Assembly (NCBI RefSeq): GCF_027859075.1
Contig: NZ_JAQIBL010000093.1
Location: 1 to 38,485, forward strand
Length of the DNA stretch: 38,485 bases
Direction: 5' to 3'
From: Oceanispirochaeta sp.
GTDB taxonomy: Bacteria; Spirochaetota; Spirochaetia; DSM-2461
Numbering within the stretch: position 1 is the stretch's first letter; the number at the start of each line of letters is the position of its first letter. The translations under genes were made by a program, and so were the position numbers. Positions 9,154 through 38,409 of this stretch are shown one piece after another. Under the pieces are notes generated by a model. It worked only from the letters and a program-made list of their open reading frames with translations. It made no database searches and was not told the origin of the DNA.

Positions 9154-10188
9154 TCAGTATTCTTCCTGGTCTTCCCGGTCCAGGAAGGATTGGTATTTTT
9201 TATATAAGCCCCTAAACTGATCATAGGTCAGCCCCAGGGCATGGGCGGCCTTTTTCTGGCTGAAACGGTTCTCTTCCAGAGCCCGGCGGATAAACCTTAA
9301 TTCCACCTCCAGGATATGATCTCTGTATTCAATCAGAGGTATTTCCTTTTCATCCGGGGTATCAGAGATTCCAGGTGCGTCTTCTTCTTCGTCCCTGTTC
9401 AGGGTCTGGTAGGGGTTGTTGAAGGGATTCAGATTCATCTCTTCAATCAAACCCCCTTCCGTCTTATAGACCGCCCTTTCCACTGCATTTTTCAACTCCC
9501 TGATATTCCCGGGCCAGGAATAATCCCTCATCTTCTCTATCAGCTTTGCAGAAAATTCGGGGATTTCGGGCTTTCCCATTTCCCGGGCCATTCTCATGGC
9601 AAAATGCCCCGCCAGCAGGGCGATATCGGTGCTGCGGTAGCGCAGGGGCGGAAGGTAGAGTACCTCAAAAGAGAGGCGGTCCAGAAGGTCTTTCTTGAAT
9701 TTCCCTTCCCGGCAGAGAGCAGGCAGATCGGCATTGGTTGCCCCGATGATTCTGACATCAACCTCCAGCTCTGTAGAACTCCCCACCCGGCTGAATCGGC
9801 CGTATTCCACTGTCCGGAGGATCTTTTCCTGGACCTCTATGGGGACAAGACCAATTTCATCGAGAAAGAGAGTTCCCCCATGGGCCTCTTCAAATCGCCC
9901 TTTCCGCATCTTTCCTGCTCCGGTAAAGGAGCCTGATTCATGACCGAAGAGTTCCGACTCTATGAGAGACGGGGGAAGGGCGGCGCAGTTGACGGGGATA
10001 TAGGGATACTTCCAGCGGCTGGAGAGGAAATGCAGACGCGAGGCTGCCAGCTCCTTCCCGGTGCCTCTCTCTCCCACAAGGAGAACCGGTCTGTCCACCC
10101 GGGCGGCAAGGCTTAGATTTTGCTGAAAGTCCATGAATTCTGCCGATTCCCCCAGGGCATCGGCAGAAGGATTGGTTTCAATGCTCAT
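9154..10188 (-). CDS. pspF: PspF-like sigma-54 enhancer-binding activator
   Basis: The 344-residue protein is a AAA+ activator with no N-terminal sensory domain, as in PspF. It has Walker A GERGTGKE near residue 38, Walker B GGTLFLDEIG, the R-finger region and a C-terminal Fis-type helix-turn-helix (FSQKKAAHALGLTYDQF). The sigma-54-contacting loop reads GSFTGA instead of the common GAFTGA. The gene diverges from pspABC, whose promoter is of sigma-54 type, so it very likely activates that operon. In Escherichia coli PspA inhibits PspF directly. The ATG at 10188 is chosen over an upstream in-frame start because the family-like sequence begins there and a -10 hexamer ends exactly six bases before it; no ribosome binding site is present. 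Confidence 0.88.
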   Translation of the reverse strand: MSIETNPSADALGESAEFMDFQQNLSLAARVDRPVLLVGERGTGKELAASRLHFLSSRWKYPYIPVNCAALPPSLIESELFGHESGSFTGAGKMRKGRFEEAHGGTLFLDEIGLVPIEVQEKILRTVEYGRFSRVGSSTELEVDVRIIGATNADLPALCREGKFKKDLLDRLSFEVLYLPPLRYRSTDIALLAGHFAMRMAREMGKPEIPEFSAKLIEKMRDYSWPGNIRELKNAVERAVYKTEGGLIEEMNLNPFNNPYQTLNRDEEEDAPGISDTPDEKEIPLIEYRDHILEVELRFIRRALEENRFSQKKAAHALGLTYDQFRGLYKKYQSFLDREDQEEY

Positions 10189-10194
10189 TGGTCT

Positions 10195-10224
10195 ATTGTA
10201 CTGATAAATGGTTAAAAATACCAA
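10195..10224 (-). promoter_or_regulatory. Predicted leaderless promoter of pspF
   Basis: On the minus strand TTGGTA (10219-10224), an 18-base spacer and TACAAT (10195-10200) are followed by AGACCA and the ATG at 10188. The predicted +1 is the start codon. Confidence 0.45.
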
Positions 10225-10296
10225 TAAAAAATTCATTCCTTGAAAATAGGAGAGTGATAAGCCGCATAAGACCCTGTCTTTCGGTGAATGGGAAGT

Positions 10297-10311
10297 TGGC
10301 ACAAATATTGC
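10297..10311 (+). promoter_or_regulatory. Sigma-54 (-24/-12) promoter of pspABC
   Basis: TGGCAC-AAATA-TTGC matches the RpoN consensus, with exactly ten bases between the invariant GG and GC. Transcription would start near 10323, giving a leader of about 65 bases before pspA. The 108-bp gap to pspF has room for upstream activator sites, but I could not define them. Confidence 0.9.
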
Positions 10312-32661: not shown

Positions 32662-35568
32662 ATGGTTAAACGATACATACTCATTGTTTCAATTTTAGCT
32701 TTAGTCGCTGTATCCCCTCTTTTTGCACAGGATGATTACAGGTCGCGCATCGCCGTTGTTCCCATGGAGAATGGTACGGGTCTTGAACAGTACAACCCCC
32801 TTTGCAGTACAATTACCGATACGGTCTCCCTGGTTCTGGAATTTCTGAAAGATTACAGAGTCCTTGATGAACAGGATGTCAATCTGGGCCGCCTGGAAAA
32901 ATTGGACCTTGATAATCAGGAGCAGATCACTCAGATTGCCAATGAAGAAGGGATTGATGAGATCATATATGGCCGGATGGTCCAGGTGGACGGTGTTTTT
33001 CAGTTTACCATCTCCCTCTACAATGTGAACAAGGGCCGGATATCAAACACCCAGAGTGCAGAAGCCTTTTCCGTCCTGGAAGTCTTTGATGCGGGTGATG
33101 AACTGACTGAAGGACTCATTAGTCAGCTCTCGGATGTTAAGATCGCTTTTGGATCTATCAGGCTGGATCAGAAGGGCGGACAGGGAAACTACACAGTTAA
33201 TCTGGACAGCTTTCCCCTGAGAAATCCGGAAAAGACCTTTAGAAAGGTTCTGAACGGACAATATGAGGTTTCCATTTCCCAGGAACGTCTTACAGGGCGT
33301 GAAGTGGTTTTTAAGGAGCTAATAGACGTCTTTGAAGAGAAAGAGACGGTGGTTGAGTTCGTGATTCCACCGGGAACACCCGAGGAATTTGTATGGATGG
33401 AAGAGGAGGGAGCGGCGCTTCTTGCTCTGGGTCAGAAAGAAGAGACCTTTGACCGGTTTATGGAAGAACTGACTCTCTTTCAGAATAAGACCCTGGCCCT
33501 TGAATATGACAGCCAACTGGAAGGACTCCGGCAGAACTACCTTGATCAGGCGGGAGAACTGGCGACCATTACTCTTCAGACGCGGATGGAAGAGGCGGAC
33601 AAGACCTTTTACAGTAAGCGTGCCAAATTTGATGAAACCCTTCAGCAGTATGAAACGATTTCATCACTGGTGAAGACTGAATATGAGATTAAAACATTCA
33701 GCAGCTCCGAGGATCTTATCATCTCGGAACCCCAGAAAATCCAAATCGGGTCCAATGGATTGATCTATTTTGATGCCTTTGACAGTGAAAACCAATGTTT
33801 TCTATACGGCTGGAACCAGAAGGACGATTCTATCCTTTTCAGATCACTGAAAGGCAAGGAAGGCGAAGTCTACAAGGGAGATTTTACGACTTCCGGATGG
33901 CGCCTGTATCTCTGGGAACCCGGCTCCTCTCAAATTGAGGTTCTGGACAATGAATTGCAGACCCTCAGTACTCTTCCTGTTCCGGATCTGCCGGGAGGCA
34001 TGACAGGTCTCAAGATTGCCCTGTCTCAAAATGGATTAGTCTATCTTGTTTCATCTTCCCAGATCCGTGTCATCGATACGACACGTGTATATGACGAAGC
34101 GGGAGAACTGATGCTTCCCGACCGCTACTATACCATCGAGGAAAAGCTGGGGGATGTGCTGACCAGTGAATCAACTTCCCCTGCGGATCTTTTCTTTGAT
34201 CAGGCCAGGCACCTGAATGTCTTTTATCCGGAAACGGGCAGTCTGTATGTCTGTGATGAAAAAGGGAATCTTCTGAGAAAGATAAGCATTCCTGAATCCA
34301 GACCGGAATCCCGTGTCGCCATTGACAGTACAGGTTTTATCTATATCACTCTCTATGACCAGAACAGCATAGCCAAGTACACCCCCCTGGGAGAAAAGGT
34401 CACCAGCTACGGCCAATACGGCACTGATCCGGGACAGTTTTCACTACCCGTCGGAATCGCTTTGGACAAGGAGGGAATCCTCTATGTGGCCGACTCCTAC
34501 AATGCCCGTGTTCAAAGCATGAATCCCCAGACTCCTCCTGTCATCTATCCGGAGATTGCCCGATACGGTGAAGATCTTGACCGGAGGATCGACAGAACCC
34601 AGGTCGCTGTCCGCAAAGACCGTGCCGCCCGGGGTGAGGTCAACTGGAAAACTCATACGGGCAATATCGTGACAACCTCATCCCTTCTAGGCTCAACTTT
34701 CGGGCTCCTGCTTCTGCAGGATTACTTCGGGAACAATGCTGCCAATGCCTATTATGATTACCAGACCAGTACAGATCCCGGTGAAATTGAAGACGCACGG
34801 GGAAAATCCGAGAGGAATACAATCTTTCAGGGCATTGCTGAAATGTCCTCTTATGCCACCATGGGTTTCGCAGCCGGATATGCCACGGAAACCCTTTTGA
34901 AAATCGAACTGGACAGCACTCTGACCCGCTACAATACAAGGCAGATTCAGAACCTGGATATGAATGACCTCTATGAAACAGATCCCAGCAAGTACCGCAG
35001 CATCCGGGCTACTTCGCGCATTGGTGTGTGGACCGGTATCGTTCCCCCTGTTCTGGGGATGATCGGTATGGCTGCATCGGCGGGAATGGCCAATGAGCAA
35101 TCAATAGATTTGCTGAACTATTCTGTGGCGGGTGGAATCCTGATTCCGCCGATATTCTCCCATCTTCATGGAGGCCGTTTCAGCATGGGCCTTCTGATAG
35201 CCGGATTGTCTGCGGATGTCCTGGCTCTCTGGGGAATTGTTGAATCAGACGTCATCTCCTCGGGAGACTTTGAACCCTGGGGTGCCGACCGCTACAGCAT
35301 CGGGAGTCCCGATACGGTGAGCCTGTCCCGATCTTTCGAGCGCATGGGAGAGCTGAAGGGGTTCTACCTCCTCAGTGCCGCCTTCGGCATTCGCCTGGCT
35401 GCCGGGATGTTTGATACCCGCTACGGATGGACCTATACCAATAACTATAACCGTTACAAAGCTGTCAGGCCAAAAGAAACGGAAACAACTGCCTCGGCTG
35501 ATTTTAATGTAAGACCCTACCTGGATGACCGCGGCGGGATGGGACTGGCACTGAATATTTCATTTTGA
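32662..35568 (+). CDS. Large exported NHL/beta-propeller protein
   Basis: A 968-residue protein with a signal peptide (MVKRYILIVSILALVAVSP, cleavage after LFA). Residues 25-170 resemble the CsgG/TolB N-terminal fold (RIAVVPMENGTG, YRVLDEQDV). A helical or coiled-coil stretch covers about 250-345. Residues 370-640 form a beta-propeller with NHL-type repeats (QFSLPVGIALDKEGILYVAD is the clearest). The rest (680-960) contains several hydrophobic segments and ends in LALNISF, so it may be embedded in or fixed to a membrane. I know no protein with this exact layout. Tyr/Asp-rich propeller repeats suggest binding to a polymer or a partner protein. Confidence 0.75.
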   Translation: MVKRYILIVSILALVAVSPLFAQDDYRSRIAVVPMENGTGLEQYNPLCSTITDTVSLVLEFLKDYRVLDEQDVNLGRLEKLDLDNQEQITQIANEEGIDEIIYGRMVQVDGVFQFTISLYNVNKGRISNTQSAEAFSVLEVFDAGDELTEGLISQLSDVKIAFGSIRLDQKGGQGNYTVNLDSFPLRNPEKTFRKVLNGQYEVSISQERLTGREVVFKELIDVFEEKETVVEFVIPPGTPEEFVWMEEEGAALLALGQKEETFDRFMEELTLFQNKTLALEYDSQLEGLRQNYLDQAGELATITLQTRMEEADKTFYSKRAKFDETLQQYETISSLVKTEYEIKTFSSSEDLIISEPQKIQIGSNGLIYFDAFDSENQCFLYGWNQKDDSILFRSLKGKEGEVYKGDFTTSGWRLYLWEPGSSQIEVLDNELQTLSTLPVPDLPGGMTGLKIALSQNGLVYLVSSSQIRVIDTTRVYDEAGELMLPDRYYTIEEKLGDVLTSESTSPADLFFDQARHLNVFYPETGSLYVCDEKGNLLRKISIPESRPESRVAIDSTGFIYITLYDQNSIAKYTPLGEKVTSYGQYGTDPGQFSLPVGIALDKEGILYVADSYNARVQSMNPQTPPVIYPEIARYGEDLDRRIDRTQVAVRKDRAARGEVNWKTHTGNIVTTSSLLGSTFGLLLLQDYFGNNAANAYYDYQTSTDPGEIEDARGKSERNTIFQGIAEMSSYATMGFAAGYATETLLKIELDSTLTRYNTRQIQNLDMNDLYETDPSKYRSIRATSRIGVWTGIVPPVLGMIGMAASAGMANEQSIDLLNYSVAGGILIPPIFSHLHGGRFSMGLLIAGLSADVLALWGIVESDVISSGDFEPWGADRYSIGSPDTVSLSRSFERMGELKGFYLLSAAFGIRLAAGMFDTRYGWTYTNNYNRYKAVRPKETETTASADFNVRPYLDDRGGMGLALNISF

Positions 35569-35579
35569 TCTTAACTGAA

Positions 35580-36152
35580 TTATTCTTCTTCCAGTTCCCA
35601 GCCGATCATCTGGTAGAGTTCCCAGGCTTTGAAACGCTTTTCACTGACGACTTGAGCAACAGCTTTTTTTCGGATTGTATTGGATGTTGAAAAGCTCTTG
35701 TATGTGGAAAAGCTGTACCATCCGTTTCGGGGGCTCAATTTAATGATGACCGGACTTATAAATACAGTTGACGGTTCTATCAGGAAGGGTGCTGCATTAA
35801 AGTATTCTTCACGAATCTGACTTTCACCTCTTCCTTTTTTATAGCTAATTGAAAGGATAGCTTTTGGATCAAAGGCGTACCTCCCCGGTTCCAGAGGGAT
35901 ACTGGTGTAATCATGGCGGGGACTGAAGACAAGTGATTTTTGCTTGCCTGTTTCCTGATTCACAATTTTAATGGTGACACTGTTTGTTGTATGACCATTT
36001 CCGTTTCGGTCCATACCAAGGTCCCTTGTTACTTCTCCAGTTATCACAAAGAGAGATTCTGTAGGACTTCCCGGCAAAGGCAGTGAGGAACAGGCGCCGA
36101 AGAGCAGTATGATCAGTATTGTGGAGGAGATAATGGTCAGTTTGACTTTCAT
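35580..36152 (-). CDS. Lipoprotein of unknown function
   Basis: A 190-residue protein with a lipoprotein signal: basic N-terminus (MKVKLT), hydrophobic core and lipobox LFGAC with the cysteine at residue 21. The mature part is beta-rich (VTIKIVNQETGKQKSLVF, IPLEPGRYAFDP), a carboxypeptidase-regulatory or transthyretin-like pattern. No family is assigned. AAGGA precedes the ATG at 36152. It is convergent with the 968-residue gene, with 11 bp between stops. Confidence 0.75.
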   Translation of the reverse strand: MKVKLTIISSTILIILLFGACSSLPLPGSPTESLFVITGEVTRDLGMDRNGNGHTTNSVTIKIVNQETGKQKSLVFSPRHDYTSIPLEPGRYAFDPKAILSISYKKGRGESQIREEYFNAAPFLIEPSTVFISPVIIKLSPRNGWYSFSTYKSFSTSNTIRKKAVAQVVSEKRFKAWELYQMIGWELEEE

Positions 36153-36234
36153 AGCATCCTTCTTAAAAAACGGGGGTTTATTTAATTCTGTCCTGTCAAA
36201 GGGCTTTTGTCAATTCAGAGAGAGCTTAAAAGGA

Positions 36235-36609
36235 TTAAACCAGGGGCCGTTTTATCTTAAAGGTCGTATTTTGCCCGGCGGTACTGCTAAAGGTTAGCAC
36301 TCCCTTATTGGCTTCCACTATATGCTGACAGATGAAGAGCCCCAATCCTGCATTTTCTTTACGGCTCTGACCAGGTACTCCTTCAAGGAATTTTCCATGG
36401 CAATTTCTTCCAACTTAAGAAGGGACACCCCCCAGATCAGGCATCCTGACATCCATAGGAATCAGATCAGGGTTCCATCCTGAAAGAAGGTTCATGACCT
36501 TCTGTGGATCTGTTGTGAATGTGACCCTTTAATTCTGAGAACTGAATATCTCAGAAAAGGAGAGGCACATCTCTTCTTCATCGTCTACAATAAGCACATG
36601 GGATGTCAT
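36235..36609 (-). pseudogene. Decayed receiver/histidine-kinase hybrid gene
   Basis: One continuous minus-strand frame of 125 codons contains two internal TAA stops (36529-36531 and 36415-36417) and a final TAA at 36235. It begins with a response-regulator receiver start (MTSHVLIVDDEEEM), continues past the first stop with the receiver phosphorylation site region (DLIPMDVRMPD) and ends with the ATP-binding G2 box and tail of a histidine kinase (ENAGLGLFICQHIVEANKG, FSSTAGQNTTF). The receiver's second half and the kinase dimerisation and N-box regions are missing, so a large internal deletion plus two nonsense changes are inferred. A -10 element survives six bases before the ATG. Confidence 0.85.
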
Positions 36610-36615
36610 AAAAGT

Positions 36616-36621
36616 ATAATA
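36616..36621 (-). promoter_or_regulatory. Surviving leaderless -10 element of the decayed kinase gene
   Basis: On the minus strand TATTAT is followed by ACTTTT and the ATG at 36609. TTGCTG stands 16 bases upstream as a possible -35. Confidence 0.45.
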
Positions 36622-36767
36622 CGGGGCTGTCCTGTTTCAGCAAGTTTATATTCGGGCCTGATGAACGTCCTTTTTCTGCACGCCGGGGAGTATATTTAAA
36701 ATCAGTTATAAGATAAAACAAATTTTAACTGTTTATTCACAAGGAAGATAAGGAAAAGTTTGTGTCT

Positions 36768-36796
36768 TTGACATGGGAATTGCGTTAAAATAAAGA
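36768..36796 (+). promoter_or_regulatory. Probable xylF promoter
   Basis: A perfect -35 TTGACA (36768-36773) is followed after 17 bases by TAAAGA (36791-36796). The short leader carries AAAGGAG. Confidence 0.5.
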
Positions 36797-36819
36797 GAAA
36801 ATTATCTAAAGGAGTTACA

Positions 36820-37896
36820 ATGAAAAAAGCGGCTATTATTCTGCTTTCTCTCGTGATGCTCGCTTCTATGAGCATGGGACTATTCGCCAACGGTCAATCT
36901 AATGGTGGAAAAAAGAAACTGAAAGTCGGTCTTTCTTTCTCTGACTTTGACACAGAAAGATGGTCTACAGAAGCTGATGCCATGGAAAAACTTTTCACCG
37001 AAGCCGGTGCGGAAGTTGTTATCCAGGTTGCCAACCATGATGCAAGACTGCAGAACGACCAAATTGCCAATATGATCACAGGTGGTGTTGATGTTCTTCT
37101 AATTGTTGCAGAAGACGGTGCTGCCGCGGCTACTGCCGTTGATGATGCCGCTGCGGAAGGCGTAAAAGTTATTGCTTATGACCGCCTGATCAAGTCTGCC
37201 AACCTGTCAGCCTATATTTCTTTTGATAACGTAGCTGTTGGTGAAGCCCAGGCTAAAGGGATTATATCCAGAGTTTCTAAGGGTCGCTATGTAATGCTCG
37301 GTGGATCTCCCACTGACAACAACGCTGTTCTCTTCAGAAAAGGACAGATGAATATTGTTCAGCCTCTTGTAGACAAGGGTGATATTACTATCGTTGCTGA
37401 CCAGTGGGTTGAAAACTGGGATAATGCTATTGCTACAACAAAGATGGAAAATATCCTGACAGCTATAGATAATGGTGTTGATGCTGTTGTTGCTTCCAAT
37501 GACGGTACCGCTCTGGGAGCTCTTCAGGCTATGAAAGCTCAGGGTCTGGCTGGTAAAGTTCCTATCTCAGGACAGGATGCAACTACTGCCGGATGTAAAT
37601 CTATTGTTGAAGGTGATCTTTCAATGACAGTCTTCAAGGACCTTAGAAAACTGATGCCCCTGGCTGTTGAAACAACTCTGGCTCTTGGTCGTGGAGAAGC
37701 TATCACAGGTATGACCTCTTACACACTGAAAGAACTCACCGGTGATAACCTTACCGGCGAAGTTCCCTGCAAGTTCCTGAAAGTTATCTCTGTAGATGCT
37801 AAAAATGTTTACGAAGAAGTTATCAAAAGCGGATTCCAGAAATATGATGAAGTTTACAAAGATATTCCTGAAGACAAGAGACCTCCCCGGGTTTAA
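36820..37896 (+). CDS. xylF: XylF-like sugar ABC transporter substrate-binding protein
   Basis: A periplasmic binding protein for D-xylose or a related sugar. The 358-residue chain has a signal peptide (residues 1-24, cleavage after LFA). The mature part tracks XylF closely: DTERWSTEADAM, DVLLIVAEDG, VIAYDRLIKSANLSAYISFD, GGSPTDNNAVLFRKGQM, VVASNDGTALGALQAM and ISGQDATTAGCKSI. ATG 36820 has AAGGAG at ideal distance and a TTGACA promoter. Codon use is strongly biased to GTT, GCT and GGT, unlike the neighbours, suggesting very high expression. No ATPase or permease gene follows, so the transporter partner must be encoded elsewhere. Confidence 0.9.
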   Translation: MKKAAIILLSLVMLASMSMGLFANGQSNGGKKKLKVGLSFSDFDTERWSTEADAMEKLFTEAGAEVVIQVANHDARLQNDQIANMITGGVDVLLIVAEDGAAAATAVDDAAAEGVKVIAYDRLIKSANLSAYISFDNVAVGEAQAKGIISRVSKGRYVMLGGSPTDNNAVLFRKGQMNIVQPLVDKGDITIVADQWVENWDNAIATTKMENILTAIDNGVDAVVASNDGTALGALQAMKAQGLAGKVPISGQDATTAGCKSIVEGDLSMTVFKDLRKLMPLAVETTLALGRGEAITGMTSYTLKELTGDNLTGEVPCKFLKVISVDAKNVYEEVIKSGFQKYDEVYKDIPEDKRPPRV

Positions 37897-37962
37897 TTCA
37901 GGGGCTCTTCCTCATCATTGCAGTTTACTTTGAAATTGCTTCCAAGAAGAAGACATCTTAAC

Positions 37963-37968
37963 TATAAT
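37963..37968 (+). promoter_or_regulatory. Predicted leaderless -10 element of the 144-residue ORF
   Basis: A consensus TATAAT is followed by AGGGTT and the ATG at 37975, so +1 coincides with the start codon. The -35 region is poor. Confidence 0.5.
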
Positions 37969-37974
37969 AGGGTT

Positions 37975-38409
37975 ATGAAAGAAACGAACCCTGAGTTACA
38001 GAAAAAACTGAAAGATTCCCTCGGGATCGATGCGGCGGCCTGGTCTCTGGGCCGCCTCTTTTCTTTCCCTGGAAAACTCTCGAGCCCTGCCTGGGGCCTC
38101 TTCGCAATGGATGCCTCGGGGGACCTGCATTTTATACGCTTTCATCAGCAAAACTGGTATTCATCCCTGACTCAGTCAGGGGCTTCCGGAGGAAACAGCG
38201 ACACCGGAGACATCCAGGTTCACATCTGTTTCCCTTCTGATAAGGCTCTGTCATTCAAGAAAATCAAGAAACGGGGATTCTTCAGTTTTCTGACAAGACC
38301 CTTTCCTCTGTATCATCTGGAACAGGAAGGATCTGAGGGGCTCGTCATCTTTGAACTGGAAGATCCGGATCTGAATTTTTTGACTCTCCTGGATCAGTTT
38401 TTCTCCTGA
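37975..38409 (+). CDS. Unknown 144-residue protein
   Basis: The protein begins MKETNPELQKKLKDSLGID and has no signal peptide or membrane helix. Mixed beta strands (WGLFAMDASGDLHFIRF, GLVIFELEDPDL) and a basic stretch (FKKIKKRGFF) suggest a compact cytoplasmic alpha/beta fold. I recognise no family. The start is fixed by the TATAAT six bases before the ATG; an in-frame TTG at 37918 lacks a ribosome binding site. It follows xylF by 78 bp but has its own promoter. Its end overlaps a possible minus-strand gene by 16 bp. Confidence 0.65.
   Translation: MKETNPELQKKLKDSLGIDAAAWSLGRLFSFPGKLSSPAWGLFAMDASGDLHFIRFHQQNWYSSLTQSGASGGNSDTGDIQVHICFPSDKALSFKKIKKRGFFSFLTRPFPLYHLEQEGSEGLVIFELEDPDLNFLTLLDQFFS

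Follow-up and report, generated by a model that had tools for sequence, protein, structure and literature searches.

The segment at 36235-36609 of the window (the whole stretch of 38,485 nucleotides analysed here) is very probably the scar of two genes, one for an NtrC-type response regulator and one for a histidine kinase carrying an ABC-ATPase domain, which stood beside xylFGH and were dismantled while xylF was left. Sequence comparison demonstrates the identity of three gene scraps, the junctions between them, the intact gene pair and operon in relatives, their sigma54-type sites and dyads, and the absence of xylGH from the window. The main reference is L042, a locus on contig 57 (JAQQAM010000057.1) of genome G003, which belongs to the same genus and is the closest relative. 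The features are as follows:

32662-35568, plus strand: flanking gene for a 968-aa NHL-repeat protein, syntenic in G003 with 68% identity.
35580-36152, minus strand: flanking lipoprotein gene, syntenic in G003 and in a second genome of the genus, G004.
36235-36363, minus strand: 3' scrap of the ABC-ATPase/histidine-kinase gene, covering the final 42 residues and the stop, 76% amino acid identity over 42 codons.
36357-36413, minus strand: kinase linker scrap, corresponding to residues about 365-383 of a 602-aa kinase, in a frame different from both ends.
36414-36609, minus strand: 5' scrap of an NtrC-like response-regulator gene, residues 1-66, with the start codon kept and a TAA at 36529-36531.
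36610-36819, no strand: intergenic region between the divergent regulator and xylF, 210 bp vs 298 bp in L042, without ATGTGCA-N6-TGCACAT dyads.
36769-36784, plus strand: remains of the sigma54 -24/-12 site of xylF, TGACATGGGAATTGCG, at -51; intact relatives have TGGCAY-N5-TTGY.
36820-37896, plus strand: intact gene for a xylF-like sugar-binding protein, 89% identical to L042.
37918-38409, plus strand: open reading frame after xylF, at the place of xylG and xylH in L042; its orthologue lies elsewhere in G003.

Translation of the minus strand from the ATG at 36607-36609 yields one frame that contains a receiver N-terminus with its acidic pair, the TAA at 36529-36531, the DVRMPD phospho-acceptor region, a second TAA at 36415-36417 and, at its far end, a GLGL-containing HATPase tail closed by the stop at 36235-36237 (minus strand). 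With X placed at the stops, this translation matched the Pfam families Response_reg (E 3.1e-9) and HATPase_c (E 2.4e-5), the latter falling at 25.1 bits slightly short of the Pfam cut-off of 26.4. These scores, together with the alignment to intact genes in the same chromosomal place of a relative, argue against a chance resemblance. The window's own genome contains three other matches to the remnant, all of them weak (E 1e-4 or worse).

When 98 genomes, the window's own included, were searched with the remnant, the top two matches after the window itself fell in the single genome G003 and lay 2.8 kb apart (E 6.2e-16 for the receiver end, 1.8e-16 for the kinase end). The original prediction had proposed looking for an intact orthologue at the same position in close relatives, and L042 provides it between the same flanks: the gene order there is 968-aa NHL protein, 187-aa lipoprotein, 602-aa kinase, 441-aa regulator, and then, divergently, xylF, xylG, and xylH, with both flanking genes and xylF in synteny with the window. 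The L042 regulator consists of a receiver, a sigma54 activator domain, and a Fis-type helix-turn-helix (Response_reg 1.8e-25, Sigma54_activat 3.2e-71, HTH_8 8.8e-14). In the L042 kinase (ABC_tran 2.6e-24, PAS_10 6.7e-5, HisKA 2.6e-14, HATPase_c 4.7e-27) a single ABC_tran match at residues 23-170 is followed by the PAS and kinase domains, without a tandem ATPase pair and with no extracellular domain among the Pfam matches. The intact pair thus bears out the earlier description of a decayed two-component remnant divergent from xylF, and the suggestion that it once controlled sugar uptake is probably correct. Elsewhere in the window, an open reading frame at 9154-10302 (minus strand) has 41% identity to residues 125-409 of the L042 regulator, the sigma54-activator part, and leaves the receiver unmatched.

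The three scraps align in order to the regulator and kinase genes of L042. The regulator scrap, which has a stop at codon 27, shares 60% amino acid identity with the L042 regulator over the first 62 codons and 65.6% DNA identity over 241 columns (36415-36652). The linker scrap, LEEIAMENSLKEYLVRAVK, which matches the L042 kinase linker LEEELMESSLREYLVRAEK, sits in an open reading frame at 36318-36452 (minus strand); its alignment of 23 codons has 70% amino acid identity and begins with four codons from the regulator side of the junction; on the nucleotide level, 36358-36430 matched the kinase gene with a blastn E of 4e-4. The kinase tail is 73% identical in DNA over 36166-36360 (E 2.8e-24). The original prediction, which saw one frame spanning the whole remnant, was therefore right about the kept start codon and about the receiver, phospho-acceptor region, and kinase tail lying in a single frame across two TAA codons, but it missed the middle scrap, which lies in another frame. 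Likewise, the middle was said to be lost, and although about 2.2 and 0.53 kb are indeed missing, the kinase linker survives between the ends. The statement that the frame was intact apart from the stops does not hold in view of a 2-base gap and the different frame of 36357-36413.

Relative to L042, the gaps between the three scraps correspond to losses of about 2,219 bp and 531 bp. The 2-base gap, which shifts the frame, follows the phospho-acceptor region just before the first junction, and the second TAA (36415-36417) sits at this deletion junction between regulator and linker scraps. In the shifted frame the regulator residues SLLK run straight into the kinase residues LEE, so that the first deletion may have created an in-frame fusion, an order of events that we infer. 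The occurrence of both remnant ends in one frame may be a one-in-three coincidence. A repeat check found few bases shared between the ends of the first junction. At the second, both L042 ends carry a run of six A and the window alignments overlap by 7 bases (36357-36363), which makes a short-homology deletion possible.

Changes per codon position between the window and L042 amount to.29/.21/.58 in the regulator scrap,.19/.07/.48 in the kinase tail scrap, and.087/.048/.431 in xylF. Since third-position changes still dominate in the scraps, the decay seems young when compared with the split from L042, and the sequences appear to have been under selection for most of the time since that split. 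The recent decay originally proposed can be kept in this sense, but its stated basis, an intact frame, is gone. The dominance of third-position changes, as well as the retention of the start codon and the key acidic residues, could also be expected if the scraps remained in use, be it as a short receiver peptide, through readthrough of the stop codons, or in some other way. This is quite improbable, as the receiver is cut to 66 residues, interrupted at codon 27 and frameshifted, the middle scrap gains no frame from readthrough, and the promoter and upstream sites of the target are eroded; recent loss explains the codon-position bias.

The comparison of xylF loci concerns this target. The product of the intact xylF in the window matches Peripla_BP_4 (E 1.2e-55) and the xylF model (E 5.9e-99, below that model's cut-off). 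In all nine loci where the regulator and the ABC-kinase are divergent from xylF (L034, L035, L038, L042, L046, L047, L048, L053, and L064; the contig ends within the L047 kinase, of which the ABC part alone is visible), a sequence match to the sigma54-type site TGGCAY-N5-TTGY lies 45-53 bp before xylF, the xylF starts of L034, L035, L038, and L053, like those of L056 and L057, being estimates from alignment. L049, whose regulator is 2.9 kb away and which has no sigma54-type site, is not among the nine, and L050, L052, L067, and L078 were excluded from the counts because their xylF start is cut or unclear. At regulator-less xylF loci (L078 left out) the sigma54 score is 12 or less. A sister arrangement occurs in L054, L056, L057, and L058, where a co-directional NtrC-like regulator and a plain kinase lacking the ABC domain lie upstream of the xylF operon; these loci carry a sigma54-type site too.

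Upstream of the sigma54 site, dyads of the form ATGTGCA-N6-TGCACAT are found, often two of them about 30 bp apart. In shuffling tests, the dyad P was 0.016 or less in eight of the nine loci with the system (L053: 0.49) and 0.57 for the best dyad of the window, and 13 loci lacking an ABC-kinase beside xylF gave 0.11 or more, although these values, like the sigma54 statistics, are optimistic because the patterns were chosen after such sequences had been seen and the dyad consensus was taken from the same loci. In the window the GG of the -24 element has become GA and the site scores 11/15, inside the background range. The same change creates TTGACA at 36768-36773, a perfect sigma70 -35 hexamer, so a switch of the xylF promoter from sigma54 to a sigma70-like type is possible. 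Two promoter claims of the original prediction fared less well: high expression of xylF finds no support here, its ancestral sigma54 site being damaged, and the promoter thought to be retained by the remnant comes down to the only sigma70-like match upstream of it (36640-36613, 9/12), which is within chance (2 matches in the region vs 1.8 expected).

The operon is also truncated downstream. In G003, xylG, xylH, and two further genes come between xylF and the orthologue of the open reading frame at 37918-38409, which in that genome lies 8.3 kb downstream. No close copy of XylG or XylH exists in the window's genome (95.9% complete), where the closest homologs have 49% and 43% identity, respectively. 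The xylF of the window is an orphan binding-protein gene, with xylG and xylH neither adjacent nor present as close copies in the genome; its product is perhaps served by another importer, such as the one on contig 195 (49%/43%). The window contig ends at 38485, and some of what differs downstream may reflect genes gained in G003 instead of genes lost from the window. As judged from the sequence, the two or more deletions, the frameshift, the stop, the loss of the dyads and of the -24 element, and the absence of xylGH together show that regulation and transport were dismantled and xylF was left. The window genome is a fragmented draft of 364 contigs, which might point to a sequencing or assembly error in an intact locus. 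Such an error would have to remove about 2.2 and 0.53 kb internally, introduce a stop and a frameshift, and at once change the -24 element, shorten the intergenic region, and drop xylGH, all with both flanks correct; as the genome contains no orthologue-level copy of the kinase, XylG, or XylH elsewhere either, we consider this explanation very improbable.

A second scar of the same kinase gene was found in G004. There, the same flanking genes are followed by about 3.8 kb that hold a hybrid dCache sensor kinase and then by the last 36 residues of the ABC-kinase (L044:1259-10832; 84% DNA identity to L042 over 118 columns). After the scar come genes for a binding protein, a His_kinase-family kinase, an AraC-type regulator, and a XylF-like binding protein; a xylF match at 1e-80 is absent from G004. 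The tail begins at residue 567 in G004 vs 561 in the window, and this difference, together with the different neighbours, suggests a loss separate from that in the window. It is possible, too, that the first deletion is shared by G004 and the window. Judging by gene content, one sugar-sensing system may have been swapped for a LytS/YesN-like set at the G004 locus.

The intact system belongs to a family of ABC-kinase fusions. In 392 genomes of the window's phylum, Spirochaetota (own genome included), at least 26 near-full-length matches at 1e-45 were found in at least 17 genomes; as the searches scored three candidates per genome, these counts are lower bounds. Twenty-five of the 26 matches were taken with their context, leaving out the G057 copy, which is very like that of G032. 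The window's genome has one intact module elsewhere, with a 626-aa kinase on contig 297; at this locus (L138, G000:C297:1-15000) the regulator and ABC-kinase are divergent from a sugar importer, and a sigma54-type site is present. In the phylum of the Oceanirhabdus genome G466, at least two of 398 genomes matched at 1e-45, over the kinase half alone (248-602), and the 377 genomes of the phylum of the Deltaproteobacteria MAG G453 gave none at the stricter 1e-55, an empty answer that proves nothing. Among the 20 genomes behind the xylF loci, three have full-length fusions (titled Spirochaetia, Spirochaetaceae, and 'bacterium'), and none of the 14 titled as other groups has one; coverage of Chloroflexota is limited to the few genomes of this set.

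In an alignment of 33 distinct fusion sequences (close copies are among them, and two are truncated N-terminally), the Walker A Lys, Q-loop Gln, and Walker B Asp of the ABC domain as well as the phospho-acceptor His and G1 Asp of the kinase are conserved in every sequence. The catalytic Glu is present in 28/33 (Asp in the L042 kinase), the switch His in 17, and the second Gly of the ABC signature in two. In a midpoint-rooted tree of 75 domains, 30 fusion ABC domains formed one group (100/95) nested among the first ATPase domains of neighbouring transporters. A 19-residue hydropathy stretch of 1.6 or more occurs in 9/33 fusions, an ambiguous result that does not establish a lack of membrane segments. 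An AlphaFold2 model of the fusion, computed from five sequences, has a mean pLDDT of 70.2, a pTM of 0.42, and an unreliable domain arrangement; within it, residues 5-247 adopt an ABC-ATPase fold (VIA-align: 1gaj, Z 26.9, rmsd 3.1, 239 aligned) and the kinase part matches PAS- and LOV-kinases. None of the best 60 of 456 matches in a sequence search of the PDB had its best stretch over both halves.

The gene neighbourhood is equally regular. An NtrC-like regulator frame adjoins the ABC-kinase in all 33 context loci, always as a separate open frame. The original prediction read the scar as a decayed single-gene hybrid with an N-terminal receiver and a C-terminal kinase, which agrees with the one frame common to both ends, but we reject it as practically untenable because the ends match two adjacent genes of the same L042 locus (E 6.2e-16 and 1.8e-16), joined when about 2.2 kb disappeared, the scrap between them derives from the kinase linker and does not share their frame, and receiver and kinase are encoded separately in L042 and in 33/33 context loci. 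A sugar-type ABC transporter ATPase is encoded in 31/33 of these stretches, the exceptions being L160 and the 9.2-kb contig L163; as six of the loci had been fetched through xylF, the unbiased count is 25/27, and L161 and L162 are near copies. Strict sigma54 sites are present somewhere in 25 of the stretches and absent from eight, with 29 sites in total vs 2.5 expected from mononucleotide shuffles. In L161 and L162 they are found at a distance from the transporter.

The ABC-kinases are frequently paired with sugar importers, which suggests that the ABC domain reads the state of the importer, and the loss of the ABC signature makes ordinary transport ATPase work unlikely. We accordingly propose a module in which the ABC domain lets the kinase read importer state. 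In the intact relatives, the kinase would bind ATP at this domain, whose ATP-binding residues are kept, and would sense through it the state of the sugar importer or a nucleotide; it would then phosphorylate the NtrC-like regulator, which would bind the dyads and open the sigma54 promoter of the sugar operon. Pairwise distances of the fusion ABC part correlate with those of the transporter ATPase (r 0.57), but the kinase part is nearly as correlated (0.51) and a stronger correlation links the regulator to the fusion (0.80-0.88), so that contact with the transporter is not singled out. The stretch after the Q-loop, the expected place of permease docking, has a mean entropy of 2.03 vs 2.13 bits for the whole ABC domain, which leaves docking unsupported beyond the invariant Gln.

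A more specific evolutionary scenario is offered tentatively. A spirochaete NtrB-type kinase might have captured the ATPase domain of a sugar ABC importer once and turned it into a permease-docking sensor. The captured domain would bind ATP and keep the Q-loop residue, with the ABC signature lost, and would dock on the permease in place of, or beside, the true ATPase and thereby sense the loaded importer. Each kinase-regulator pair would switch on its own importer through a sigma54 promoter, and the window would show such a circuit soon after its dismantling, with the promoter drifting to a sigma70-like form.

The scar alone is ordinary gene decay, and its worth lies in the intact system to which it points: a repeated module of Spirochaetota that combines an ABC-ATPase/kinase fusion with an NtrC-type regulator, usually a sugar importer, and often a sigma54-type site. 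If the proposed function is true, the module would couple the state of a sugar importer directly to transcription in a bacterium, and would explain proteins that are easily mistaken for transporter ATPases or plain kinases. The window and G004, where the same kinase gene has left a scar twice at one locus, are useful for studying how a circuit is lost. Exact-phrase searches of open papers, judged by titles and abstract beginnings and covering also transporter-linked and sigma54 control of sugar transport, returned no description of an ABC-kinase fusion, which is weak evidence of absence. We rate the intact ABC-kinase system as a new variant of two-component regulation.

Among known systems, the NtrB/NtrC type, including AtoSC and ZraSR, is similar in several respects. 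The kinase half of L042 scores best with AtoS, followed by PnpS and ZraS, and the regulator with AtoC and NtrC, in each case below the curated cut-offs, and the target of the intact system has, by sequence match, a site of the sigma54 -24/-12 type. AtoS and ZraS have membrane-bound sensor regions at the N-terminus, whereas the intact L042 kinase has an ABC-ATPase domain there; the window itself retains three scraps and no complete regulator or kinase gene. With XylG/RbsA-type transport ATPases the fusion shares its N-terminus, which matches the first ATPase domain of the YtfR, AraG, AlsA, and XylG models, but it differs by its single ATPase domain, its degenerate ABC signature, and the attached kinase. 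In BceRS-BceAB flux sensing, a kinase is paired with an ABC transporter whose genes it controls, and BceS, a kinase encoded apart from the transporter, reads the state of BceAB by interacting with it (PMC6978683). The present system differs in having the ABC-type domain inside the kinase and a transporter for sugar import, and the putative contact between kinase and transporter is proposed from neighbouring genes and their domains. XylFII-LytS-YesN is likewise a two-component system next to a xylose-type transporter, in which a binding protein together with a LytS-type kinase detects the sugar extracellularly. PMC10384115 refers to the XylFII-LytS complex. The L042 kinase is distinguished from this type by the lack of an extracellular domain among its Pfam matches, but a gene set of this general kind follows the second scar, in G004.
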